Assembly (NCBI GenBank): GCA_009885735.1
Contig: VFKD01000146.1
Coordinates: forward strand, 1-32,253
DNA from: a bacterium
GTDB taxonomy: Bacteria; Armatimonadota; Chthonomonadetes; Chthonomonadales; CAJBBX01
DNA: 32,253 nucleotides
Direction: 5' to 3'
Of this stretch, positions 3,225 through 15,638 are shown one piece after another (positions within the stretch are counted from its first letter, which is position 1; each line of letters opens with the position of its first letter). Made by a program: the position numbers and the translations under genes. A model generated the notes under the pieces. It did not search any database and was not told the origin of the DNA. It was given only the letters and a program-made list of their open reading frames with translations.

Positions 3225-4697
3225 CTAGGCTGCTAGGACTTGCCGGGCCTCGCTGCGCATTCCCTGAACCACGAAGGTGTGAATGCACTTGCCTGCCGCC
3301 GTCGTCTTCTCGCCGGAATCGTAGACGTGAACGTCCGACATCACGTTTCGATAGGTTGCTTCGTCGATGAGTATCGTGTCTTCCTCTGGTGTGTGCTTGC
3401 TTATCTCCTCGAGCCAGTGGGCGTTCACCACCACATCGCCAAGGGCGGTGTACTCCATGTGTTCGGAAGAGCCAAAGTGACCAACAATCGGCTCGCCCGT
3501 GGTGATACCAATCCCCACACCCAGTTCCCAGCCGAACTTCTCATCCAGGCGAACATAGAGGTTCTGCAGAGCGGACGGAATCTTAAGAGCAGCCTTCACC
3601 GCGTCGAGGGCGTGATTTCGTTTGCTTGACGGCATTCCGAAGGTCGCCAACACGGTGTCTCCCAGGTATTTGCTCACCAAGCCATGATGGCTCACGATTA
3701 CTTTGTTGACCTCGGCGAAGAACTCATTGAGCGTGCTCACTGTCTGCTCTGGCGGAAGATGCTCCATCAGCAGCTTGAAGTTGCGAATGTTGATCACCAC
3801 GATGCTGACGCTGTGCCGCGTGCCCGCCATAATCGTGGAGGCTTCCTTGCCGAGCGTCTGGGCTGCAACGCTGGCCGGAATGAACTGCTGGAACATTGCT
3901 CGCAGCTTCTCTTCGTGTACTAGCTTCTCGCGGAGCCACCGAGTAGTCTCCTGGAAGCTGCTGGCAAGCTGGGCAAACTCATCGCTGGACCGCGCGTTAA
4001 ATCGTGCGTCCCACTCGCCTCGGCGAATGGCCTGGCTCACATCCAGCAGCTTTAGGATTGGCTTTGCAATCAATGCGTTCAGGCGCCAGTAGAGCAGTCC
4101 GGTAGCCGTGAGGCATAGCAGCGCCACAATGCCTGCAGGCAGCCAGAATGCCCTCGAGGCCTGATCGTGCGCGAAGTGGCTGGGCACATAGACCACCGAG
4201 GCTCCCACAATCTTGCCGTTGACCTCTACGGGAGACGCGACGGCTAACATCTCTTGCTCACCGGAGCCTGTCTTCTCTTGGAAGGTCTTGACGCGCGTGT
4301 CCGCCTGAAGGAAAGCAATCGCGCGGCTCTCGAAGTCGGTTGGCGCTTCCAGGCCGAATTGAGGAACTTCACCCACACGCTTGTACTTGAACGCCACTTC
4401 GGACGGAGCTTTGCTGTAGTTGTCTGCCACTGCCCGGGCAGCCTTGCCGCGCTTGACTTCCGCCTCTGCCGTGACCTTTCGTTTCGCACCGCCGGCAGGC
4501 TCATCGGCTGTGAGTCGGTCGACAGCATCGAATGTCCGAAGAATCGTCCCTGCCTTCTCGTGATTTTCGCGTTCAGCTCCCCGCTGCATGAGCTGATAGG
4601 CGAGCACACCGGGAATGACGCCACCAAGGACGATGACGGACATGGGGATTAAGATCAGCTTGAAGCCAATGGTGCGCGCAAACTTGCCAGGGGACAT
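3225..4697 (-). CDS. membrane-bound class III nucleotidyl cyclase-like protein with HAMP, catalytically degenerate
   Basis: A 490-residue inner-membrane protein. It has a first membrane helix at about residues 11-33, an extracytoplasmic sensor region to about 183, a second helix (about 184-205), a HAMP linker (about 206-260), and a class III adenylate/guanylate cyclase domain (about 295-470). The cyclase fold is clear: LNEFFAEVNKVI, KYLGDTVLATFG with the second metal Asp (D347), and MEYTALGD. However, the first metal Asp is Asn (N303 in INIRNF). In GDVVVNAHWLE the transition-state Asn and Arg positions are Val424 and Trp428. Cyclase activity is therefore doubtful, and the domain may sense or regulate. 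The ATG at 4697 has a strong GGAGGAGGG Shine-Dalgarno sequence; a longer frame begins at 4775 without such support. Confidence 0.85.
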   Translation of the reverse strand: MSPGKFARTIGFKLILIPMSVIVLGGVIPGVLAYQLMQRGAERENHEKAGTILRTFDAVDRLTADEPAGGAKRKVTAEAEVKRGKAARAVADNYSKAPSEVAFKYKRVGEVPQFGLEAPTDFESRAIAFLQADTRVKTFQEKTGSGEQEMLAVASPVEVNGKIVGASVVYVPSHFAHDQASRAFWLPAGIVALLCLTATGLLYWRLNALIAKPILKLLDVSQAIRRGEWDARFNARSSDEFAQLASSFQETTRWLREKLVHEEKLRAMFQQFIPASVAAQTLGKEASTIMAGTRHSVSIVVINIRNFKLLMEHLPPEQTVSTLNEFFAEVNKVIVSHHGLVSKYLGDTVLATFGMPSSKRNHALDAVKAALKIPSALQNLYVRLDEKFGWELGVGIGITTGEPIVGHFGSSEHMEYTALGDVVVNAHWLEEISKHTPEEDTILIDEATYRNVMSDVHVYDSGEKTTAAGKCIHTFVVQGMRSEARQVLAA

Positions 4698-4844
4698 TGC
4701 AACAACCCTCCTCCAGAGTAGCCTCCGCGCCCTGAGTGGGAGTGCGAAGGAGATTCTGCAAGGGTTTTGTTCCATGAGAGGATTGGCGAATCACCATACT
4801 ATTACGGTGTTACTTGGTGCGGATTGCCGAAGCGGACATGAGAT

Positions 4845-6163: not shown

Positions 6164-6376
6164 ATCTTGCAGAGTACTGCTCGGATTTAGCACCTGCCGC
6201 GCGCACGAAGACGCACGGTGGTTGTTGTGGCATCAACGGGCCGGTCCCTCCGCCACTCTCGATAAGGAAGCATATTGGATTGTTGGAGTGACTCTACCCG
6301 CGCCGCAGCGAAAGTGTCAACAGATTCTGGGCCTTGGCGCGCAGCCGGGTACTCTTGTCTTCAAGAGGGTACTTAC

Positions 6377-6997
6377 TTGGGCTTTGACGAACGCCTATTC
6401 CTAATTCTGAACCGCGGCGCGGCGAACGGCCCGATGGATGCTGTGATGCCAGTCATCACAAACCTTCACCAGCAGAAGTGGTTTTTCGCGGTGATAGCTG
6501 TGGCGGCTGTGGCCGGCATTCTCCGGCACAAGAAGCGCGGATGGGTTGCCGTCATTGCCCTTGTTGTCGCCATCGGTCTTGCTGACTCAGCGTCGACGAG
6601 AATCCTTAAGCCTGTAGTGGGTCGTCCAAGACCCTGTCATGTTGCTTCAGGCGGAAGGTTCGTCGTTCCGGACGTTCGCATTATTGCGGGGGAGAGCTGT
6701 CCGGGTTCGCCGTCCTTCCCGTCGAACCACGCCGCAAACACGATGGCCGCTGCGACCGTGTGTGTTTGGCTGACACGGGGTCGCAAGCGCTGGGCTTGGC
6801 TGCTGCTTCCTGCCGTCATCGGCTACAGTCGTATCTACTTGGGTTACCACTACCCATCGGATGTTCTGGCCGGGTGGCTGCTTGGGTTTGCACTCGCGCT
6901 TTCGGTCGTCTGGGCGGCACGAAGGGTGTTGCCACCTAGCGCAACAATTGTCGGCGACGCAATTTCGGGGAGTACCGAACCACGCACGAGTGGCTAG
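6377..6997 (+). CDS. PAP2-family membrane phosphatase
   Basis: A type 2 phosphatidic acid phosphatase/undecaprenyl-diphosphatase-like integral membrane enzyme that removes phosphate from lipid phosphates. All three motifs are present. Counting from the TTG at 6377, these are KPVVGRPRP (K78, R85-P86), PSFPSNH (H118), and SRIYLGYHYPSD (S151-R152, H158, D162). The N-terminal segment FDERLFLILNRGAANGPMDAVM is the usual family start. The TTG at 6377 puts the start right before it with an AGAGGG Shine-Dalgarno sequence seven bases upstream; an ATG at 6275 would add 34 unlikely residues. Four to six membrane helices are visible. A diverged copy of its 3' end lies at 12971-13101, marking this gene as one border of the accessory slot. 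Confidence 0.88.
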   Translation: MGFDERLFLILNRGAANGPMDAVMPVITNLHQQKWFFAVIAVAAVAGILRHKKRGWVAVIALVVAIGLADSASTRILKPVVGRPRPCHVASGGRFVVPDVRIIAGESCPGSPSFPSNHAANTMAAATVCVWLTRGRKRWAWLLLPAVIGYSRIYLGYHYPSDVLAGWLLGFALALSVVWAARRVLPPSATIVGDAISGSTEPRTSG

Positions 6998-7119: not shown

Positions 7120-7290
7120 ATGGCTATTACGCTGCACTTAAGACCAGAAATCGAAGCGGCGATTGAGGCGCGGGCGCAGGCTAGGCAGGTGCCTGTGGAG
7201 ACTCTCTTGCAGGAGGTGATCGACGGGTTCGCTGTGCCAATGCTCCACCCTAAAGGAGACACGTGTGACTTCGTTACTAATCACTCTTGA
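7120..7290 (+). CDS. small antitoxin-like protein
   Basis: A 56-residue protein whose first 38 residues (ITLHLRPEIEAAIEARAQARQVPVETLLQEVI) have the beta-strand plus two-helix pattern of ribbon-helix-helix-like antitoxins. The tail from about residue 40 is unlike that family and overlaps the start of the next gene, so this may be a truncated antitoxin whose 3' end was replaced. I chose the ATG at 7120 because it follows a GGGGGA stretch; ATGs at 7069 and 7072 are possible. It may be a second antitoxin for the MazF-type toxin downstream, or a remnant. Confidence 0.5.
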   Translation: MAITLHLRPEIEAAIEARAQARQVPVETLLQEVIDGFAVPMLHPKGDTCDFVTNHS

Positions 7291-7522
7291 CGACCCGACT
7301 CGCAGGCGCCTCGATTCACTCAGCCGCTTGGAAGGGATTGCAGCGGAAGACGCAGCAGCGAGGTTGCTGCGCCGTGCAGTGATGGGCGCCCGACCCCGCC
7401 GTACGTTCGACACAGACGCGATCCTCCGAATCAACGAGCCATTCGCGCACGAGGATCTAGCCCTGGCAGAGTCTGATTCCGAATCCCGCCTTGAATTGCT
7501 CTTAGCCGAGGACAGTCTTTGA
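7265..7522 (+). CDS. antitoxin of a MazEF/PemIK-type pair
   Basis: An 85-residue protein starting at GTG with a strong AAAGGAG five bases upstream. The N-terminal half (SLLITLDDPTRRRLDSLSRLEGIAAEDAAARLLRRAVM) fits a ribbon-helix-helix DNA-binding antitoxin. The acidic C-terminal half (FAHEDLALAESDSESRLELLLAEDSL) fits the toxin-neutralising tail. Its stop overlaps the toxin's TTG start by four bases, as is normal for toxin-antitoxin operons, and such pairs usually repress their own promoter. The assignment rests on position and pattern rather than a strong family motif. Confidence 0.72.
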   Translation: MTSLLITLDDPTRRRLDSLSRLEGIAAEDAAARLLRRAVMGARPRRTFDTDAILRINEPFAHEDLALAESDSESRLELLLAEDSL

Positions 7523-7854
7523 AGCGCGGTGAGGTTTGGTTGGTCGACTTTGGTGTGCCGTCTGGTCCCGAGCAAGCAGGTCGCCGACCAGCACTTCTGT
7601 TCCAGCATGATAGCCTTACGCCTGGCCTGACGACAGTTCTCGTCATACCGCTCACCACGAACCTTCGACGTTTGCAACTTCCATGCACGGTGAAGATACC
7701 CTCGGGCGAGGCGGGCCCGGACAGAGATTCGGTGGTCCTCTGCCATCAATTGCAGGCCCGCGGAAAGTTGCGCCTCCTTGAGCGAATAGGAGAGCTACCA
7801 TTGGACCTGCTCTCCGAGGTTGAGGAGTGTGTGCTGGATACGGTGGGTCTCTAG
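7519..7854 (+). CDS. MazF/PemK-family mRNA interferase toxin
   Basis: A 111-residue ribosome-independent endoribonuclease that would cleave mRNA at short sequence sites and stop growth unless bound by its antitoxin. The start KRGEVWLVDFGVPSGPEQAGRRPALLF is the hallmark MazF strand-loop, followed by VLVIPLTTNLRR (the conserved P-L-T segment), then SVVLCHQLQARGKLRLLERIGEL, matching the family's D-S-x-x-x-x-x-Q segment with the basic catalytic-side residues. Length is typical. It starts at TTG overlapping the antitoxin stop. Its stop lies 41 bases before the antisense accA tail remnant at 7896, so the toxin set fills the space between PAP2 and that remnant. Confidence 0.9.
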   Translation: MKRGEVWLVDFGVPSGPEQAGRRPALLFQHDSLTPGLTTVLVIPLTTNLRRLQLPCTVKIPSGEAGPDRDSVVLCHQLQARGKLRLLERIGELPLDLLSEVEECVLDTVGL

Positions 7855-7895
7855 CTTGTTCCGCAACGGCGATAGTCCTTCCGGCACTCCTCGGC

Positions 7896-7958
7896 TTACT
7901 CCTCCCACGACCCTAGCTTGCGGATGTGGGCGTAGCGGTCGTCCAGCAGCGTCATGAT
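7896..7958 (-). pseudogene. accA 3'-end remnant, copy A (about 20 codons plus stop)
   Basis: On the minus strand this stretch encodes TLLDDRYAHIRKLGSWEE then a stop, against TLLDERYARIRKLGAWEE at the end of the intact accA (13826). The match stops at about 7958. The frame continues upstream to 8099 in unrelated sequence, so this is only the tail of the gene. It shares the Asp-Asp and Gly-Ser-Trp variants with copy B at 12793 rather than with the intact gene, suggesting origin from a different accA allele. Confidence 0.85.
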
Positions 7959-8137
7959 AGTCTGCGGCATGCAATGTCCCAATTGGTTTGCCCCTGCTAG
8001 ATCATAGGCCGGCGATTTCTCGGGAACTGGGAAGCAGGAATCTGCCGAACCCAATCCCGAACTGTGATCTAATTCGCTCAAACCGAGTGCAGTACTCATT
8101 ACCGGTTAACGCCTCGGCGAGATAGACTGGTTCCACT
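7959..8137. other. gap before the first NTPase
   Basis: No gene or clear promoter is visible. A loose inverted element involves GGGAACTGGGAAGCAGG and nearby C-rich sequence, but the pairing is poor. The ATG at 8138 has only a weak upstream ribosome binding sequence. Confidence 0.3.
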
Positions 8138-10321
8138 ATGGCCGACACCTTCTTCATAGCAGGCGGAACGCTCAGTGCAGCAGCTCCCAGCTACATCGAG
8201 CGTGCTGCCGACCGCCAGCTTCAGGACGCCCTACGCGAGGGCGAGTATTGCTACGTCCTCGACAGTCGGCAGAAGGGCAAGTCCTCGCTCATGGCTCGCG
8301 CTATCGAGCGCCTGCGAAACGACGGCATCGTTTGTGCCAAGCTCGACCTGCAGAGGTTCGGCGCCAATCTCGACCCGGAGCGATGGTACGCAGGGCTCCT
8401 CTCTGCCATCGGCCAGGACCTCGGCCTTCGGGAGGAGATGTTCAGCTATTGGGGCGCGAACCAGACATTCGGTCCGCTGCGTCGCCTGTTGGGTGCGCTC
8501 GAAGAGGTAGTCCTTCCGTGGCTCGGCGAGCGCCGGCTCATCATCTTCATCGACGAGATAGACTATGTTCGCAGCCTGCCGTTCCCCACGGACGAAGTCT
8601 TCGCCGGACTGCGCGAGCTGTACAACCGCCGCGCGGATGACCCCCGCTTTCGGCAGATTGCGTTCTGCCTGCTTGGCGTGGCCACTCCCAGCGACCTCAT
8701 CAAGGACGTGCGAATCACGCCGTTCAATGTGGGCAAACGAATCGAGCTAACTGACTTCACGCTCGATGAGTGCTGTCAGTTGGCGGCAGCGCTCGGTCCG
8801 AGCGGTCAAGCACTGATACGTCGGGCCCACTACTGGACGAATGGCCACCCGTATCTGACGCAGCGCCTGTGTCAGGCTATCCAGGAAGACGGGCGCGTAA
8901 CTACTGCAAAGGGCGTCGACCGAAGCGTCGAGAGCCTCTTCTTCAACGCCAGGGCGCGGGAGGAGGAGCCGAACCTGAGCGACGTGGCGCGGCGCGTGCT
9001 GGAGAGCAACCCCGGCGACCGCTCCAGCGAGGAGTACCGCTCCGCTATCCTGGACCTGCTCGATCAGGTGCGCTCGCGGCGCAGGTCCATTCGCGACGAC
9101 GACACCGATCTGCTAGTCGCGGCGCTCAAGCTCTCGGGAGTCTCCGCTGTGGTGGAGGGCTACCTCTGGATTCGCAACCGCATCTACTACCGCGTGTTCG
9201 ACCAACAGTGGGTGCGCGCGAACCTGCCGGATGCTGAGCTGCAGCGGCAAGGGTCTGCTGCGAGGCGTGCAGCGCTTCGGACGGCGTCGGTTGCGGGAGG
9301 CGTAGTAGTGGCGATGGGTGCCTTAGCCATCTTGGCTCTTTGGCAGAGAAGTGAAGCGATTCAGAGTGGGAACGTGGCAGAATTCAACGAATCCAAAGCC
9401 AATGTTAACGCTACAAAACTTGCGTCGGCACTCGAGACGGTCAAGAAGCAAAGTGCTGATGCCACCCGACTTGCTCAGCAACGCCAGGAAGCACTAACGA
9501 AAGCAAGAGAATATCTGAGCGAGAGTACAATTAATGCAACGCGCCTCATGATCTCGAATAGGAACCTTCAAAAAGCCTCGGCACACTCTAGCTGGCTGGC
9601 AAACAAAGCAAGCCTTGCAGCCAGGAATGAGAAGCAACTACGACTTGATATTCAGAAGGTTGTCAAGCAGTTGAAACTGTCCAGAACTGCTATGAGGATG
9701 GTGGAACGGCAGGTCAATCTCATCATGTTGGCTGTCGCAAGTGAGATTCCGAGCTTGACCCTCAATACACGGATTGGTGACCACATCGATGCCATCGAGT
9801 TCATTTCGCAAGGTAGGCGAGCGCTTGCGAACAAGGATTATTCACTCGCAGAGGAATCATTCGTCAAAGCACTCCTCGTCGATTCCCGAACTGCTAGCGG
9901 TCTTCAAATAGCCTCCGTTCTAAACAGGATCGGCGGCACATTGCTTGCAGCTGATGAGTCCGCGCTTGCGGTGAGCTACTTTTTGAGGGCACTGCCTATC
10001 CTTGAGCGTGATGCTCCTGGATCGTTGGAAGTAGCCACAGTACATGGGAATCTGGGCTACGCTTATGACAGCCTCGGTCAGACTAAGCGAGCACTAGGAC
10101 ATTATGTCAGTGCATTAGCCACTCTTAGAATCAAAGCACCTGGATCGCGAAAACAGGCTGTCATGGAAAGGGCGCTCGGAGGTGTTTTCCACAAGCTAGG
10201 ACGAAAACAGGAGTCAATTATCCACTTAACTAATGCTAATGAGACGTACAAGTCTTTTGGCCTCCAAGCTCTCGGTATAGAAGTTCAAATGAGGTTTGCG
10301 ACAATTTCAGCCCGAATGTAG
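8138..10321 (+). CDS. AAA_35-type NTPase with membrane helix, coiled coil and TPR-like repeats
   Basis: A 727-residue protein. Residues 1-290 are an AAA-like (AAA_35) NTPase: PSYIERAADRQLQDAL, a P-loop region DSRQKGKSSL (42-51) in which the first P-loop Gly is Asp, Walker B LIIFIDEID (134-142), then TPFNVGKRIELTDFT and NGHPYLTQRLCQAI. These last two segments recur in the NTPase at 10596. A single membrane helix follows (about 385-403), then a long Ala/Lys/Glu-rich coiled coil (about 404-540), then TPR-like repeats (about 555-715, e.g. GTLLAADESALAVSYFLRALPIL). From about base 9340 the DNA becomes visibly more AT-rich, so the C-terminal half may have a different origin. The layout suggests an NTP-driven switch with a C-terminal sensor at the membrane; a role in defence or signalling is inference. 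Confidence 0.8.
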   Translation: MADTFFIAGGTLSAAAPSYIERAADRQLQDALREGEYCYVLDSRQKGKSSLMARAIERLRNDGIVCAKLDLQRFGANLDPERWYAGLLSAIGQDLGLREEMFSYWGANQTFGPLRRLLGALEEVVLPWLGERRLIIFIDEIDYVRSLPFPTDEVFAGLRELYNRRADDPRFRQIAFCLLGVATPSDLIKDVRITPFNVGKRIELTDFTLDECCQLAAALGPSGQALIRRAHYWTNGHPYLTQRLCQAIQEDGRVTTAKGVDRSVESLFFNARAREEEPNLSDVARRVLESNPGDRSSEEYRSAILDLLDQVRSRRRSIRDDDTDLLVAALKLSGVSAVVEGYLWIRNRIYYRVFDQQWVRANLPDAELQRQGSAARRAALRTASVAGGVVVAMGALAILALWQRSEAIQSGNVAEFNESKANVNATKLASALETVKKQSADATRLAQQRQEALTKAREYLSESTINATRLMISNRNLQKASAHSSWLANKASLAARNEKQLRLDIQKVVKQLKLSRTAMRMVERQVNLIMLAVASEIPSLTLNTRIGDHIDAIEFISQGRRALANKDYSLAEESFVKALLVDSRTASGLQIASVLNRIGGTLLAADESALAVSYFLRALPILERDAPGSLEVATVHGNLGYAYDSLGQTKRALGHYVSALATLRIKAPGSRKQAVMERALGGVFHKLGRKQESIIHLTNANETYKSFGLQALGIEVQMRFATISARM

Positions 10322-10595: not shown

Positions 10596-12587
10596 ATGAA
10601 CGCAGAAATCGCCTTCGTCGTCGCGATGGACCGTGTCCGGTCCAGCCCACAGCCCATGGAGCGAAAGGCAGCCATGAGCAGTGAGTTGACCGAGGCTATT
10701 GGCGCGTGTCCCGCTTACCTCGCCGCCAAAGAGGTCGGTCAGGTGATCACTCTCGACTCCGGCGATGGCGCCGCTCTCGTCTTCTTCGGCGATCCTCTCT
10801 CCGCAATGCATGCGGCTCTGGAAGTGCAGCGCGCGGTCAACTATCCGGGCTGCCACTCGCCACTGCGCGTCGGCGTCCATACAGGGCCGGTCATTCGGCG
10901 CACGGACGTAGCGGGCAAGCCGAATGTGGATGGTCATGGGATCGATATGGCGTTTCGCGCCATGGCTGTGGCAGACGGATCTGCGGTCGTCGTCACCGAG
11001 GCCTACGCGGCCATTTTGGTGGCGTTCGAGGAGTGGGCAGCCCGACTCAACGAGCCCGAGGACCACCTGGTGAAGCACGACCGCGTGAGTGTCTGCCGGG
11101 TGCTGGACGCTGCGCAGGAGCCTAAAGCAGGCGACGGCCTACGAGTTTCCATCGTCTACAAGCGTCATGCCCAGCCGGACGGCGCTCTGTTGGCGAAGCT
11201 TGAGGCTAGGCTGCGGGCAGGCGGATTCAGGGTGTTTGTGGATCGCCACATGTCTATTGGGGTGGAGTGGGCGCACGAGATCGAGCGTCAGCTTCGCGCG
11301 TCAGACGCAGTGATTGCGCTGCTCTCGGATCGCGCGGGCGACAGCGAGATGATGTTGTATGAACTGCAGACGGCCTGCGATGAGCGCGACAAGAGCGGCA
11401 AGCCAGCCATCCTTCCCGTGCGTGTCGGCAGTGACGCGCCGCTCGGGGGTGAGATTGGCCGGCTCGTCTCGCGGTACCACTACTTCCACTGGTCACGTTC
11501 CGGCGACGATGAGCGTCTGTGGAGCGAGATCGATGCGGCGCTGCGCAAGCCGCCTGACCCGCCTGCGTCGCTTGTCGCGCCCATCGAGCAGCCTGGTGGA
11601 GCGGTGCCGCTTGACTCACCTTACTATATCGAGCGTTCAACCGACGCGCAGTTCGCGGAGGCCATCGCTCGGCGTGACAGCATTGTTCTGTTGAAGGGCG
11701 CGCGCCAGATGGGCAAGACCTCGCTGTTAGCGCGCGGTCTGAACGCCGGCCGCGCGCGCGGCTGGCAGATCGTCCTCACCGACTTCCAGACGTTCAGCAG
11801 TTCGCAGCTCGAGACCGACGAGCGCCTCTATCGCTCGCTCATGCACGCCTTCCGCACGCAGCTCAAACTGGACGTCGATCTGGAGTGGAACGACTGGCTC
11901 GGCGCGAACACGAACCTGGAGCACTTCATCCAGACGCGCGTGCTGCCGCAGGTGGATGGGCACCTCATCTGGGCGATGGATGAGGCGGATCGGCTGTTCA
12001 GCCGGCCCTACGCGGGTGACTTCTTCGGGTTGGTGCGGTCTTGGCACAACCGCCGCCCCCTGGAGCCGCAGGGGTCTTGGCAGCGAATGACCATGGCGAT
12101 ATCCTATGCCACCGAGGCGCATCTGTTCATTACGGACCTGAACCAGTCACCGTTCAATGTGGGCACTCGTCTCGGCCTGACCGATTTTTCGGTGGATCAG
12201 GTCCGGGCGCTCAACGACCTGTATGGCAAGGCGCTGCGAACGGAGGAGGAGGTCAGGCAGTTCTTCGATCTGCTGAACGGCCAGCCGTACCTAACGCGCC
12301 GTGCACTGGACGAGCTTGTCCGCGATGGACACTCGCTTGCTCAAGTGATTGAGTTGGCCGATCACGACGAGGGAATCTTTGGTGACCACCTGAGGCGCAT
12401 CATGGTGGCGCTGTCCAACGATTCGACGCTTGCAACGGCGGTCCTGACGCTTCTCGGCGGCAAGTCCATCGAAAGCGAGCCCTTCTATCGGCTGCGCGCC
12501 GGCGGCGTAATTCGGGGGGACTCCGTAGCAACTGCGACGTTCCGGTGCCGCATCTACGAGACCTACTTGCGCAGGCACCTTAGCTGA
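10596..12587 (+). CDS. fusion of cyclase-like domain, TIR domain and AAA_35-type NTPase
   Basis: A 663-residue three-domain protein. Residues 1-172 are a class III cyclase-like domain: IAFVVAMDRVRSS (D12), LDSGDGAALVFF (D57), LRVGVHTGPV, and NVDGHGIDMAFRAM, where the usual transition-state Asn is Asp and the Arg remains. Residues 182-300 are a TIR domain (TIR_2 type): RVSIVYKRH, LRAGGFRVFVDRHMSIGVEW, SDAVIALLSDRAG, and MMLYELQTA, with E256 at the position of the catalytic Glu of NAD-cleaving TIRs. Residues 335-640 are an AAA_35 NTPase: YYIERSTDAQFAEAI, Walker A GARQMGKTS (368-376), Walker B LIWAMDEAD, SPFNVGTRLGLTDFS, LNGQPYLTRRAL. The NTPase is related to the upstream one. The plan resembles prokaryotic STAND-type conflict proteins, in which the NTPase gates a toxic TIR. 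It has no membrane segment. The target and trigger are unknown. Confidence 0.85.
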   Translation: MNAEIAFVVAMDRVRSSPQPMERKAAMSSELTEAIGACPAYLAAKEVGQVITLDSGDGAALVFFGDPLSAMHAALEVQRAVNYPGCHSPLRVGVHTGPVIRRTDVAGKPNVDGHGIDMAFRAMAVADGSAVVVTEAYAAILVAFEEWAARLNEPEDHLVKHDRVSVCRVLDAAQEPKAGDGLRVSIVYKRHAQPDGALLAKLEARLRAGGFRVFVDRHMSIGVEWAHEIERQLRASDAVIALLSDRAGDSEMMLYELQTACDERDKSGKPAILPVRVGSDAPLGGEIGRLVSRYHYFHWSRSGDDERLWSEIDAALRKPPDPPASLVAPIEQPGGAVPLDSPYYIERSTDAQFAEAIARRDSIVLLKGARQMGKTSLLARGLNAGRARGWQIVLTDFQTFSSSQLETDERLYRSLMHAFRTQLKLDVDLEWNDWLGANTNLEHFIQTRVLPQVDGHLIWAMDEADRLFSRPYAGDFFGLVRSWHNRRPLEPQGSWQRMTMAISYATEAHLFITDLNQSPFNVGTRLGLTDFSVDQVRALNDLYGKALRTEEEVRQFFDLLNGQPYLTRRALDELVRDGHSLAQVIELADHDEGIFGDHLRRIMVALSNDSTLATAVLTLLGGKSIESEPFYRLRAGGVIRGDSVATATFRCRIYETYLRRHLS

Positions 12588-12792: not shown

Positions 12793-12963
12793 CTACTCCT
12801 CCCACGACCCCAGCTTCCTTATGCGGGCGTAGCGGTCGTCGAGCAGAGCCGTGATCGACTTCTTAGCAAGCGTGGCGAGGGATTTTGAAACTGTCTGCTT
12901 TATGGAGTTCGCCGTTGCCACGGGGTCGCGATGCGATACTCGCAGAGGCTCTGGGATTACCAT
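12793..12963 (-). pseudogene. accA 3'-end remnant, copy B (56 codons, frame intact)
   Basis: The minus strand reads VIPEPL, then HRDPVATANSIKQTVSKS, then ALLDDRYARIRKLGSWEE and a stop, aligned throughout with the end of intact accA. By hand count about 26 of 168 bases differ, mostly at third codon positions, and a 38-base central run is identical. The frame is unbroken and opens with an ATG at 12963, but the rest of the gene is missing, so it cannot make a carboxyltransferase. The pattern of silent changes says it diverged as a working gene elsewhere before arriving here. It abuts a PAP2 tail remnant at the broken end. Confidence 0.88.
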
Positions 12964-12970
12964 GTACTAG

Positions 12971-13101
12971 CCCTCAAGCGTGCTTGCGGGGTGGGCCTGG
13001 GATTTGCACTCGCGCTTCCGGTGGTGTGGCTTGCGGCGAGGATAAGCGAGCCATTGGTGGAACCTGCAACATCAGGCAATGCCGCGAGCGTGGATACATA
13101 G
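12971..13101 (+). pseudogene. PAP2 phosphatase 3'-end remnant
   Basis: The plus strand reads PSSVLAGW, loses one base, then reads LGFALALPVVWLAARISEP and continues to a TAG at 13099-13101. It matches YPSDVLAGWLLGFALALSVVW near the end of the intact PAP2 gene at 6377. The codon equivalent to the Tyr before PS is TAG, and the single-base loss breaks the frame, so it is dead. It is fused head-on to accA remnant B at about 12953-12970, where both gene families share a few bases (CTGGGATTACCA-like). Confidence 0.8.
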
Positions 13102-13111
13102 TGCCGCGTGT

Positions 13112-13117
13112 TACAAT
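13112..13117 (+). promoter_or_regulatory. possible -10 box for the DUF433/DUF5615 pair
   Basis: TACAAT at 13112-13117 lies 20 bases before the antitoxin ATG and just after the PAP2 remnant stop. A -35 match about 17 bases upstream is poor. The GGAGGT Shine-Dalgarno sequence at 13124-13129 is well placed. The promoter call is tentative. Confidence 0.35.
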
Positions 13118-13136
13118 GACGATGGAGGTAACGATA

Positions 13137-13451
13137 ATGGCGATACTTGATGTCCGCTCACATGTAACTCGCGACGCTGACGGCAGAGCCTGGGTACTGG
13201 AGGCAAACACGAAGGTTATTGAGATTGCAATGGATCGCTACGCCTATGGCTGGAGTCCCGAAGAGATTCACTTTCAGCATCCCCACCTATCCCTGGCGCA
13301 AATTCACTCAGCTCTAAGCTTCTACTACGACCATCAGCCGGAGATGGACGCCGAGATCGAGCGAGACCTACAGGAGTACAAGGAACTGAGGGCGAAGGCT
13401 GAGCCGTCCCCATTTACGCGGCGAATGAAGGCAGAGGCACGTGCTGAATGA
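13137..13451 (+). CDS. DUF433 antitoxin-like protein
   Basis: A 104-residue protein. The C-terminal part matches the DUF433 pattern, a small helix-turn-helix-like fold found in antitoxins: TKVIEIAMDRYAYGWSPEEI, then FQHPHLSLAQIHSALSFYYDHQPEMDAEIERD. In this module the DUF433 protein binds DNA and neutralises the downstream PIN-like protein. The ATG at 13137 follows GGAGGT by seven bases; the frame runs on upstream through the accA and PAP2 remnants, which is clearly not part of the gene. The stop overlaps the toxin start (ATGA), typical of a coupled toxin-antitoxin pair. Confidence 0.88.
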   Translation: MAILDVRSHVTRDADGRAWVLEANTKVIEIAMDRYAYGWSPEEIHFQHPHLSLAQIHSALSFYYDHQPEMDAEIERDLQEYKELRAKAEPSPFTRRMKAEARAE

Positions 13452-13795
13452 GTGTGGCGCTGTACATGGATGTTCACATTCCGCGCGCTGTGACGCTGGG
13501 GTTGAGGATGCGAGATGTTGATGTTCTGACGGCGCAGGAGGACTACGCGGCCAGGGTGGACGATGCAACACTCCTGACACGGGCCACTGTGCTGGGACGG
13601 GTTTTGGTTACTCAGGACAAGGACTTCTTGGCAATTGGCGCCGATTGGCAGCGTCGTGGAGTTGCGTTTGCCGGCGTTGTCTACGCGCCGCAGGCAGCTC
13701 TCACGATTGGGGAGCTAATCCGAGACCTTGAGCTTATCGGGCGGGCAGGTGAGCCGGTTGACTTCGAGAATCGTGTAGAGTTCCTGCCGTTGTAG
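13448..13795 (+). CDS. DUF5615 PIN-like toxin
   Basis: A 115-residue protein of the DUF5615 PIN-like family, the usual partner of DUF433. ALYMDVHIPRAVTLGLRMRDVDVLTAQE has the first acidic strand (D9) and following helix. RATVLGRVLVTQDKDFLAIG carries the second acidic pair, and GVVYAPQAALTIGELIRDLELIG closes the fold. These Asp residues correspond to the metal site of PIN nucleases, so RNA cleavage is likely but not shown. It starts at an ATGA overlap with the antitoxin and ends 30 bases before the accA stop, placing the pair directly between the PAP2 remnant and intact accA. Confidence 0.88.
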   Translation: MSVALYMDVHIPRAVTLGLRMRDVDVLTAQEDYAARVDDATLLTRATVLGRVLVTQDKDFLAIGADWQRRGVAFAGVVYAPQAALTIGELIRDLELIGRAGEPVDFENRVEFLPL

Positions 13796-13825: not shown

Positions 13826-14797
13826 CTACTCCTCCCACGCCCCCAGCTTGCGAATTCGCGCGTAGCGCTCGTCCAGGAGAGTAGTAATCGACTTCTTAGC
13901 AAGCGTGGCGAGGGATTTTGAAACTGCCTGCTTGATTGAGTTCGCCGTGGCAACAGGGTCGCGGTGCGCTCCTCCGAGCGGCTCTGGAATCACAGTGTCC
14001 ACCACGCCCAGCTCTTTCGCGCTCTGAGCAGTCAGCTTAAGCGCATCGGCTGCATCGCCCGCTCGCTTGCTGTCGTGCCACAGTATAGATGCGCACCCTT
14101 CTGGCGAGATGACCGAATAGACGGCATGTTCGAGCATGAGCACTCGGTCGCCCACGGCCATCGCCAGGGCGCCGCCGCTGCCGCCCTCGCCGATCACTAT
14201 CACGACGATAGGAGTCCTAAGGACCGCGAGCTCCTTAAGGTTGCGTGCAATTGCGTCGCTCACGCCCATCTCCTCGGCGTGGAGGTCCGCCGCGGCGCCC
14301 GCCGTGTCTACAAATAGGATGAGCGGCTTCTGGAACTTCTCGGCAAGACGAGCGATGCGCAGCGCCTTCCGAAACCCTTCCGCGTGGGCGCTGCCGAAGT
14401 TACGCCTCTGCCGCTCGCGCAGGTCCCGCGCCTTCTGCTGGCCGATGACGAACACGGGAGCGCCGTCCAGGCGAGCAGGCCCCCCAACCACGGCTTCGTC
14501 GTTACCCGCCAGGCGGTCCCCCGAGAGCTCTAGGAAGTCATCTAGGATAAGTCGCACATAGTCGAGCGTGTAGGGACGATCTTTGTGGCGTGCCATGAGC
14601 GTCTTCTCCCACGGAGAGAGGCTGCTGTAGACCTGCTTCATCACCCGTTTCAGCTCAGATTCGAGGACGTCAATGCGGGCGTCTAGGTCTATTCCCTGGG
14701 CCTTGGCCTCGTCCTGCTTCTCCGGTCTCCGAAGCTCGGCGATAAGCTGCTCGAGCTCGGAGATGGGCTTCTCGAAGTCGAAAGCGTTATTCAGCAT
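13826..14797 (-). CDS. accA: acetyl-CoA carboxylase carboxyltransferase, alpha subunit
   Basis: Together with AccD, transfers carboxyl from biotin to acetyl-CoA, giving malonyl-CoA for fatty-acid synthesis. The 323-residue protein starts MLNNAFDFEKPISELEQLIAEL, the normal AccA opening, then has RPYTLDYVRLILDDFLELSGDR, GQQKARDLRERQRRNFGSAHAEGFRKALR, FVDTAGAAADLHAEEMG, and the oxyanion-forming GEGGSGGALAMAVGDRV. The C-terminus RIRKLGAWEE is complete. The ATG at 14797 overlaps the accD end by 11 bases, consistent with coupled translation for 1:1 subunits; an ATG nine codons upstream is possible. Two foreign-looking copies of its last 20-56 codons lie downstream, so the 3' end of this gene borders a variable region. 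Confidence 0.96.
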   Translation of the reverse strand: MLNNAFDFEKPISELEQLIAELRRPEKQDEAKAQGIDLDARIDVLESELKRVMKQVYSSLSPWEKTLMARHKDRPYTLDYVRLILDDFLELSGDRLAGNDEAVVGGPARLDGAPVFVIGQQKARDLRERQRRNFGSAHAEGFRKALRIARLAEKFQKPLILFVDTAGAAADLHAEEMGVSDAIARNLKELAVLRTPIVVIVIGEGGSGGALAMAVGDRVLMLEHAVYSVISPEGCASILWHDSKRAGDAADALKLTAQSAKELGVVDTVIPEPLGGAHRDPVATANSIKQAVSKSLATLAKKSITTLLDERYARIRKLGAWEE

Positions 14798-15638
14798 TCG
14801 GCACTGCCTGAATGAGCAGACCAAGGAGCTGAGCCAAAACTGACCGCATCTCCTTGCGCGGGACGATACGATCGATCATTCCGTGCTCAAACTGAAATTC
14901 GCTCGTCTGGAAGTTGTCCGGGAGCTTCGTGCCCACGTCTTGATTGCCGACTCTGCGCCCCGCGAACCCGATGATTGCTCCAGGCTCCGCCAGCGCAATG
15001 TCGCCAAGCGAGGCATAGCTTGCGAAGACGCCTCCGGTGGTGGGATCAGTGAGCACGACGATGTATGGAATGCGCGCCAGGTCGAGCCTAGCCGCCGCCG
15101 CGCTAGTCTTCGCCATCTGCATTAGCGCCAGCAGGCCCTCGTGCATACGAGCGCCTCCAGACGCGGTGAACATCACGACGGGCATGCCCTCCGCAGCGCC
15201 CATCTCCATGGCGCGGGCCACGCGCTCTCCTACAACTGAGCCCATGGATCCGCCCATGAATCCGAAGTCCGCCACGCCGATTACCACTGGAATGCCCTCA
15301 ATGGCCGCGGTTCCAGTCAGCACTGCTTCCCAGAGCCCGGTCTTCTCCTCGGCCCGCTTTCGTTTGTCCAGATATTCTGGAAACTGGAGTGGATCTGTGG
15401 AGCGCAGGTGGCCATCGATCTCCACGAAGGTCTCTTCGTCCACCGTCATGGCAAGCCGCTCGCGAGCGCTCAGCCGATGATGGTGCTGGCACTTGTGGCA
15501 GACCTTTTGGTTTCGCTCGAAGTCTCGCGCGAATAGAATCTCGCCGCAACTGGCACACTTCGTCGCGATTCCCTCTGGAACGCTTGACGCCGTTCGACTG
15601 GGGCGGGCCCGCCTGCCAAACCACGAGCCTCGGTTCAC
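14787..15638 (-). CDS. accD: acetyl-CoA carboxylase carboxyltransferase, beta subunit
   Basis: Beta subunit of the same carboxyltransferase. The N-terminal zinc ribbon is seen as CASC...CHKC (two CxxC pairs 15 residues apart), followed by HHRLSARERLAM. The crotonase-like core has DFGFMGGSMGSVVGERVARAME, FTASGGARMHEGLLALMQMAKT, and LTDPTTGGVFASYASLGDIALAEPGA with its acyl-CoA oxyanion loops. I prefer the GTG at 15638 (283 residues, start NRGSWFGRR) because a GGAGG lies five bases upstream; the ATG at 15650 has no such site. The gene runs divergently from pheA, 86 bases away, and continues straight into accA. Confidence 0.95.
   Translation of the reverse strand: MNRGSWFGRRARPSRTASSVPEGIATKCASCGEILFARDFERNQKVCHKCQHHHRLSARERLAMTVDEETFVEIDGHLRSTDPLQFPEYLDKRKRAEEKTGLWEAVLTGTAAIEGIPVVIGVADFGFMGGSMGSVVGERVARAMEMGAAEGMPVVMFTASGGARMHEGLLALMQMAKTSAAAARLDLARIPYIVVLTDPTTGGVFASYASLGDIALAEPGAIIGFAGRRVGNQDVGTKLPDNFQTSEFQFEHGMIDRIVPRKEMRSVLAQLLGLLIQAVPNAE

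Follow-up and report, generated by a model that had tools for sequence, protein, structure and literature searches.

The stretch of DNA considered here (the window; 32,253 nucleotides) corresponds to one entire contig of a 5.0 Mb assembly. Judging from matching contigs, its named relatives would place it within Armatimonadota, in the order to which the Chthonomonadaceae MAGs belong. Examination of that portion of the window lying between a PAP2-family gene and accA revealed two adjacent and similarly oriented genes, termed here S and E, together with a series of smaller features, as follows.

6275 to 6997, plus strand: PAP2-family gene, the left core gene of the slot
7265 to 7522, plus strand: putative antitoxin without a Pfam match, lying immediately ahead of the PemK/MazF toxin
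7519 to 7854, plus strand: PemK/MazF-family toxin (E 1e-22), neighbouring cargo
7889 to 7963, minus strand: displaced copy of the accA 3' end (the older one), left boundary of the S-E cargo
8138 to 10321, plus strand: gene S, the putative sensor, with AAA_35 (GKS and DEID kept), one transmembrane helix (aa 383-401), a coiled coil and TPRs
10596 to 12587, plus strand: gene E, the putative executor, with a cyclase-like domain (aa 3-165), a TIR domain (aa 183-318) and an AAA_35/STAND-like NTPase with C-terminal winged helix (aa 329-663)
10602 to 11090, plus strand: class III cyclase-like domain of E, keeping the metal-binding aspartates D12 and D57 as well as R121, with D117 in place of the transition-state asparagine
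11142 to 11549, plus strand: TIR domain of E, whose candidate catalytic glutamate, E256, does not vary within the family and lines up with the glutamate of 7uxr
11577 to 12584, plus strand: AAA_35 NTPase of the E type, with P-loop GARQMGKT (aa 368-375) and a DEAD-like Walker B (aa 461-465)
12793 to 12965, minus strand: a further displaced accA 3' end, sharing 84% identity with that of the live gene and marking the right edge of the S-E cargo
12971 to 13077, plus strand: displaced PAP2 3'-end fragment, repeating the terminal part of the gene at 6275-6997
12981 to 13451, plus strand: DUF433 protein with an uncertain start, probably an antitoxin and part of the neighbouring cargo
13448 to 13795, plus strand: DUF5615/PIN-like toxin, neighbouring cargo
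13826 to 14824, minus strand: accA, the right core gene of the slot

Gene E begins with an ATG and encodes a protein of 663 residues. The ORF is real, with the frame being kept in homologues and with no internal stops being present. The initial annotation had described the product as a fusion of cyclase-like, TIR and AAA_35 domains with an intact P-loop. Indeed, Pfam detected both TIR_2 (aa 191-304; E 5.6e-18) and AAA_35 (aa 333-659; E 5e-74), the cyclase-like domain was recognized by a profile of its relatives and by modelling, and the P-loop is intact from residue 368, with a Walker B-like MDEAD beginning at residue 461. E is conserved in a second genomic copy and in other phyla, neither E nor S is named by an NCBIfam family, and a search for a phage origin of the module returned 0 matches among 50,697 phage records.

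Structure prediction, which the initial annotation had proposed as a check, yielded a model of E with a mean pLDDT of 87.7 and a pTM of 0.53, such that the individual domains are reliable and their relative arrangement is uncertain. The model recovered the class III cyclase fold at the N-terminus and a winged helix at the C-terminus. When compared to the PDB, it best matched the plant TIR-NLR RPP1 (8.8e-12), with Avs3 (5.9e-8) and CED-4 (6.2e-8) also being matched. Because RPP1, followed by CED-4 and Avs3, offered the best matches, the AAA_35 domain looks like a STAND NTPase; a P-loop, a Walker B motif, a winged helix and STAND proteins as closest structures, the features by which a STAND/NLR-like NTPase is recognized, are all found in E. 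The chain, however, stops with AAA_35 (aa 659-663), and the sensor repeats absent from it are instead found on S. Nor was a transmembrane helix detected in E proteins, apart from one borderline score within a cyclase domain.

In TIR NADases, the catalytic glutamate is found in an S-x-M/W-x-x-x-E motif at the start of helix alphaC. In E, that catalytic position is held by E256, within the sequence SEMMLYEL. Although the TIR domain alone matched no solved structure when searched by sequence, a family profile reached the bacterial TIR structure 7uxr and aligned E256 with the glutamate of WTEYEL in that protein. The position is a glutamate in all 21 of the 21 family TIR domains considered, so that the earlier nomination of E256 as a catalytic residue holds. 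The TIR domain of E probably destroys NAD.

The cyclase-like domain is more divergent. Pfam reported Guanylate_cyc at aa 89-142 with an E value of 0.0027, under the Pfam cut-off, while a profile built from the cyclase domains of relatives matched Rv1900c (6e-11) and Ma1120 (4e-9), and the modelled N-terminus of E could be superimposed on Ma1120 with a target-normalised TM score of 0.8. The position of the transition-state asparagine is an aspartate (D117) in the window copy, a glutamate in the Chthonomonas MAGs and an asparagine in most relatives; in Rv1900c itself, this position is a histidine. The start motif of the window domain, MDRVRSS, is likewise divergent. Since the far N-terminal position of the domain is shared with peptidases and kinases (a trypsin, a CHAT peptidase or a kinase is found there in relatives), the domain is treated here as accessory, and it is possibly inactive. 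That it serves as an essential input is unlikely, given how TIR-AAA_35 proteins lacking the cyclase-like domain adjoin the same kind of partner. Accordingly, the earlier proposal of a nucleotide-binding, cyclase-like gate is not retained, the domain being optional and swappable. The same domain is common among Acidobacteria and Verrucomicrobia (L063-L126), where it is fused to kinases, TPRs or DUF4062 and often present in multiple copies. Elsewhere in the window, near the slot, positions 3225-4775 encode a HAMP-cyclase protein of 516 aa that is a canonical class III cyclase. Finally, in two genomes of one genus, a small gene encoding a cNMP-binding domain is the immediate convergent neighbour of a cyclase-TIR-AAA_35 gene (L178:6056-6541 and L179:6437-6904), its product being a possible receiver of a cyclase product.

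The related NTPase gene noted earlier in the vicinity of E is S, lying upstream at 8138-10321 and encoding a second AAA_35 NTPase (Pfam E 2.9e-25) followed by TPRs. S proteins form an AAA_35 subtype of their own. In the first set of S proteins examined, 19 of 19 present one strongly hydrophobic helix directly after the NTPase, nearly always preceded by an arginine-rich stretch. The positive-inside rule would thus place the NTPase in the cytosol and the repeats outside the membrane, a topology that fits with one helix-containing S protein from Nostoc ending in a peptidoglycan amidase. In one plasmid-encoded S protein bearing PAS-GAF sensors, the helix is not convincing, and this version would be cytosolic. 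Across relatives, the C-terminal region of the partner comprises WD40, TPR or PAS-GAF domains. The model of S (pLDDT 73.9) matched SSO1545, archaeal ORC and Avs3/Avs4. S is probably a membrane-anchored sensor NTPase.

The distribution of the two genes was then considered. Of 251 surveyed genomes from the phylum, 48 contain E-type AAA_35 domains, at 99 places in all. An adjacent S gene accompanies approximately 49 of the 56 E genes whose flanks were long enough for evaluation, as counted by hand from tables of the regions read; random placement would be expected to put S beside E in about 0.2% of cases. In the present genome, seven of the eight E genes adjoin S, with the eighth, a second cyclase-TIR-AAA_35 gene, starting at a contig edge. 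The two genes are mostly separated by no more than 130 bp and share a strand, with the pair being convergent in one family. S comes first with most cyclase-TIR genes of the order to which the window belongs, and E comes first in Verrucomicrobia and Acidobacteria. Because gene order differs among lineages, the linkage of S and E has survived reordering. Moreover, distances between E NTPases and between S NTPases are correlated across 41 pairs (r = 0.72), a value attained in 0 of 5000 trials in which paralogues were re-paired within genomes (the three genomes with at least four pairs); when only the seven pairs of this genome were re-paired, the corresponding figure was 99 of 5040. These observations offer evidence, rather than proof of contact, for S and E being cognate partners. 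E belongs to a two-gene system in which the upstream S is the likely sensor, and not to the one-protein switch previously envisaged.

Seven E genes are orphans with no adjacent S (L038, L170, L173, L179, L187, L201 and L203), all of which encode a cyclase domain. Two of these (L201 and L203, from two genomes of one genus) encode cyclase-AAA_35 proteins with no TIR domain and lie between the same CofD/YvcK-family gene and a GHMP kinase gene; they may represent a domesticated form. The initial annotation had held that orthologues fixed in housekeeping contexts would count against a defence role for E, and this objection applies in part, namely to these two TIR-less relatives.

The E chassis carries a range of N-termini. 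In addition to the cyclase-TIR arrangement of the window, TIR alone, cyclase alone, kinase-TIR, kinase-cyclase-TIR, trypsin-TIR, CHAT-TIR, BTAD/SARP and BTAD-TIR versions were identified, with a TIR domain immediately ahead of AAA_35 being the element common to the non-SARP class. TIR-AAA_35 proteins lacking the cyclase are paired with S at four loci (L192, L197, L200 and L209), and relatives with a cyclase and no TIR likewise have an S of this kind as their partner. A one-protein switch gated by the cyclase was rejected on these grounds, as relatives missing either domain keep the partner gene. Six of the eight E genes of the present genome bear BTAD/SARP N-termini and lie beside an S gene, which suggests that the same NTPase chassis also serves ordinary transcriptional signalling. 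At three other loci (L189, L193 and L207), a BTAD-TIR-AAA_35 protein presents a degenerate TIR domain, with the glutamate being lost in L193, and the S gene is convergent rather than co-directional.

The conflict systems predicted by Kaur et al. (2020; PMC7159879) include among their parts trypsin with Trypco1, TIR domains and cNMP cyclases. Among the relatives of E, trypsin-TIR-AAA_35 with Trypco1 and CHAT-TIR-AAA_35 with a WD40 protein are encoded on Nostoc plasmids, and one Nostoc operon comprises Trypco1, a trypsin-TIR-AAA_35 protein and an AAA_35-WD40-amidase protein. More broadly, plasmids from both Nostoc and Abditibacteriota bear TIR-AAA_35 genes, each with an adjoining partner. At one further locus (L175:4492-10209), SIR2-like and HerA genes occupy the space between the NTPase part of S and WD40-like remnants that adjoin a TIR-AAA_35 gene; apparently, one defence-type module was inserted into another. 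Outside the window, the surroundings of relatives proved to be mostly housekeeping in nature, with 100 neighbours yielding few matches to defence models. No dense defence islands were found in this set, where PADLOC matches were mostly generic, with SIR2-HerA being the clear exception. Reading E as a conflict protein, as first proposed, finds partial support: in a TIR domain with the catalytic glutamate on an NLR-like NTPase, in a variable slot shared with toxin-antitoxin genes, and in the known conflict parts of its relatives (trypsin with Trypco1, CHAT and the SIR2-HerA insertion), some of which are on plasmids.

The placement of the pair in a swapped-cargo slot, together with toxin-antitoxin pairs (PemK/MazF at 7519-7854 and DUF433/DUF5615 at 12981-13795), was also borne out. 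In three relatives from the family (L131, L132 and L134), the PAP2 gene and accA are immediate convergent neighbours, corresponding to empty sites. Here, they are separated by 6.8 kb containing the PemK/MazF pair, the S-E pair and the DUF433/DUF5615 pair. In blastn searches, extra accA 3' ends of 173 nt (84% identity; 5e-48) and about 70 nt (83% identity; 8e-14) were detected, and these, along with the duplicated PAP2 3' end, lie between the cargos, at the junctions. The graded divergence of the copies fits with successive insertions, the oldest being furthest from accA. No integrase or recombinase is visible in the slot, and exchange via homologous flanks, leaving slots in tandem, can be envisaged. 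The nearest known analogy is the insertion of restriction-modification genes with long target duplication. The slot could reflect a mechanism of tandem cargo accumulation.

The sequences show the domain architecture, the pairing and co-divergence of the two genes, catalytic motifs that are intact and a history of insertion. We consider it reasonably likely that S and E comprise a two-gene, NLR-like conflict module in which S senses, E assembles in an NTP-driven manner and the TIR domain cleaves NAD+, such that the cell stops growing or dies. In such a module, the repeat domain of S would detect some form of insult (phage infection or damage to the envelope, for instance), freeing the S NTPase to engage the E NTPase in trans. 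E would then oligomerize, bringing TIR domains together, and the assembled TIR domains would cleave NAD+, leading to death or dormancy before the invader spreads, that is, to abortive infection or dormancy. As an accessory, the cyclase-like domain might dimerize, serve to bind a nucleotide or provide a second output. More tentatively, and with somewhat greater doubt than confidence, the pair may be the bacterial counterpart of paired sensor and helper NLRs, with a membrane-anchored sensor STAND protein switching an executor STAND protein in trans, and with one NTPase-pair chassis accommodating swapped outputs, be they a NADase TIR, a protease, a cyclase, a kinase or a SARP transcription factor.

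The main rival sees S and E as a membrane-linked switch for stress or envelope signalling, with the TIR domain mostly scaffolding assembly or making a signalling nucleotide and the output being regulatory, as in the SARP-AAA_35 paralogues. Such a switch, deemed rather unlikely, would agree with six of the eight E genes of this genome bearing BTAD/SARP N-termini beside an S gene, with the housekeeping surroundings of some orphan E genes and with the lack of dense defence islands in PADLOC scans around E genes. It does not sit well with the invariance of the catalytic TIR glutamate, with the association of the TIR class with trypsin-Trypco1, CHAT, plasmids, the SIR2-HerA insertion and, here, two toxin-antitoxin modules, or with the window copy being an insertion absent from relatives. 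A self-contained, Pycsar-like switch, in which infection would prompt the cyclase-like domain to synthesize a cyclic nucleotide that triggers the TIR domain of the same protein, appears improbable: E contains no cNMP-binding domain, the window copy has replaced the asparagine by an aspartate and fails to match PycC, and relatives with a TIR and no cyclase, or the reverse, have S partners of one kind. This is so despite both metal-binding aspartates and the arginine being kept (as is the asparagine in most relatives), three of 19 cyclase domains of the family weakly matching the PycC model (best 3.7e-4) and a cNMP-binding protein being encoded immediately beside two relatives of one genus (L178 and L179). 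Lastly, the module could be a once-functional passenger decaying as cargo, its cyclase remnant and TIR domain now inactive, as the lost transition-state asparagine and the divergent MDRVRSS motif might imply; with both reading frames open, with P-loops, Walker B and the TIR glutamate intact, and with E conserved in the second copy of this genome and in other phyla, this is highly improbable.

TIR-STAND proteins are already known, and bacterial NLR-type immunity is usually viewed as relying on single proteins that both sense and execute. If the conflict module proposed here is correct, then the paired sensor and executor logic of plant and animal NLRs also exists in bacteria, as a widespread two-gene version. 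Association of the same NTPase pair with either a TIR domain or a SARP transcription factor would, moreover, directly raise the question of how immune and regulatory switches interconvert. Culturable Nostoc strains hold relatives of the pair, rendering the system testable. As far as could be found, a two-gene split that combines AAA_35 on both chains, a probably membrane-anchored sensor and swappable outputs has no precedent in PADLOC or NCBIfam; nor did searches of the open-licence literature for AAA_35 (PF14516) alongside TIR, WD40 or SARP yield any account of the present system.

Of known systems, Thoeris was rejected, as the ThsB model matched with an E value of only 0.037 and the partner is an AAA_35-TPR protein rather than the ThsA NADase. 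Pycsar shares with E the coupling of a class III cyclase-family domain to a TIR domain. Membership was likewise rejected, since the window domain does not match PycC (three of 19 relatives do so, weakly) and E has no cNMP-binding domain; unlike in Pycsar, both domains are found on an NTPase chain. SARP/AfsR-type STAND regulators are represented in the same genome by BTAD/SARP-AAA_35 paralogues, each beside S, whereas the window protein contains TIR and cyclase-like domains and no BTAD. The NTP-dependent conflict systems of Kaur et al. (2020; PMC7159879), namely the VMAP and iSTAND ternary systems and System 4, share with the present family TIR, cNMP cyclase, trypsin with Trypco1 and caspase-like peptidase domains, as well as variable N-termini on a constant NTPase. 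AAA_35, BTAD and SARP go unmentioned in the main text of that study. None of the components MoxR, vWA, VMAP and EACC1 was seen here; the MoxR ATPase and the vWA component, which together mark operons of the ternary systems, are absent from the window proteins scanned and from the commonest Pfam families of the 100 neighbours. Avs3, Avs4 and Avs5 resemble E and S in NTPase structure and in having an N-terminal effector domain, yet combine effector and sensor in a single chain where two chains are found here, and a PADLOC scan returned neither an Avs model nor any confident match for E or S. There is likeness, too, to the plant TIR-NLR RPP1, the best structural match of E, and to APAF-1/CED-4: in RPP1, as in E, a TIR domain precedes a STAND-like NTPase with a winged helix, although AAA_35 forms a family of its own, the TIR domain of E is preceded by a cyclase-like domain, and the sensor repeats, rather than being part of the TIR protein, are carried by a second NTPase encoded next door, usually with a transmembrane helix. 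The logic shared with NLRs and APAF-1/CED-4 is that of sensing by a repeat domain and NTP-driven assembly (PMC7159879).
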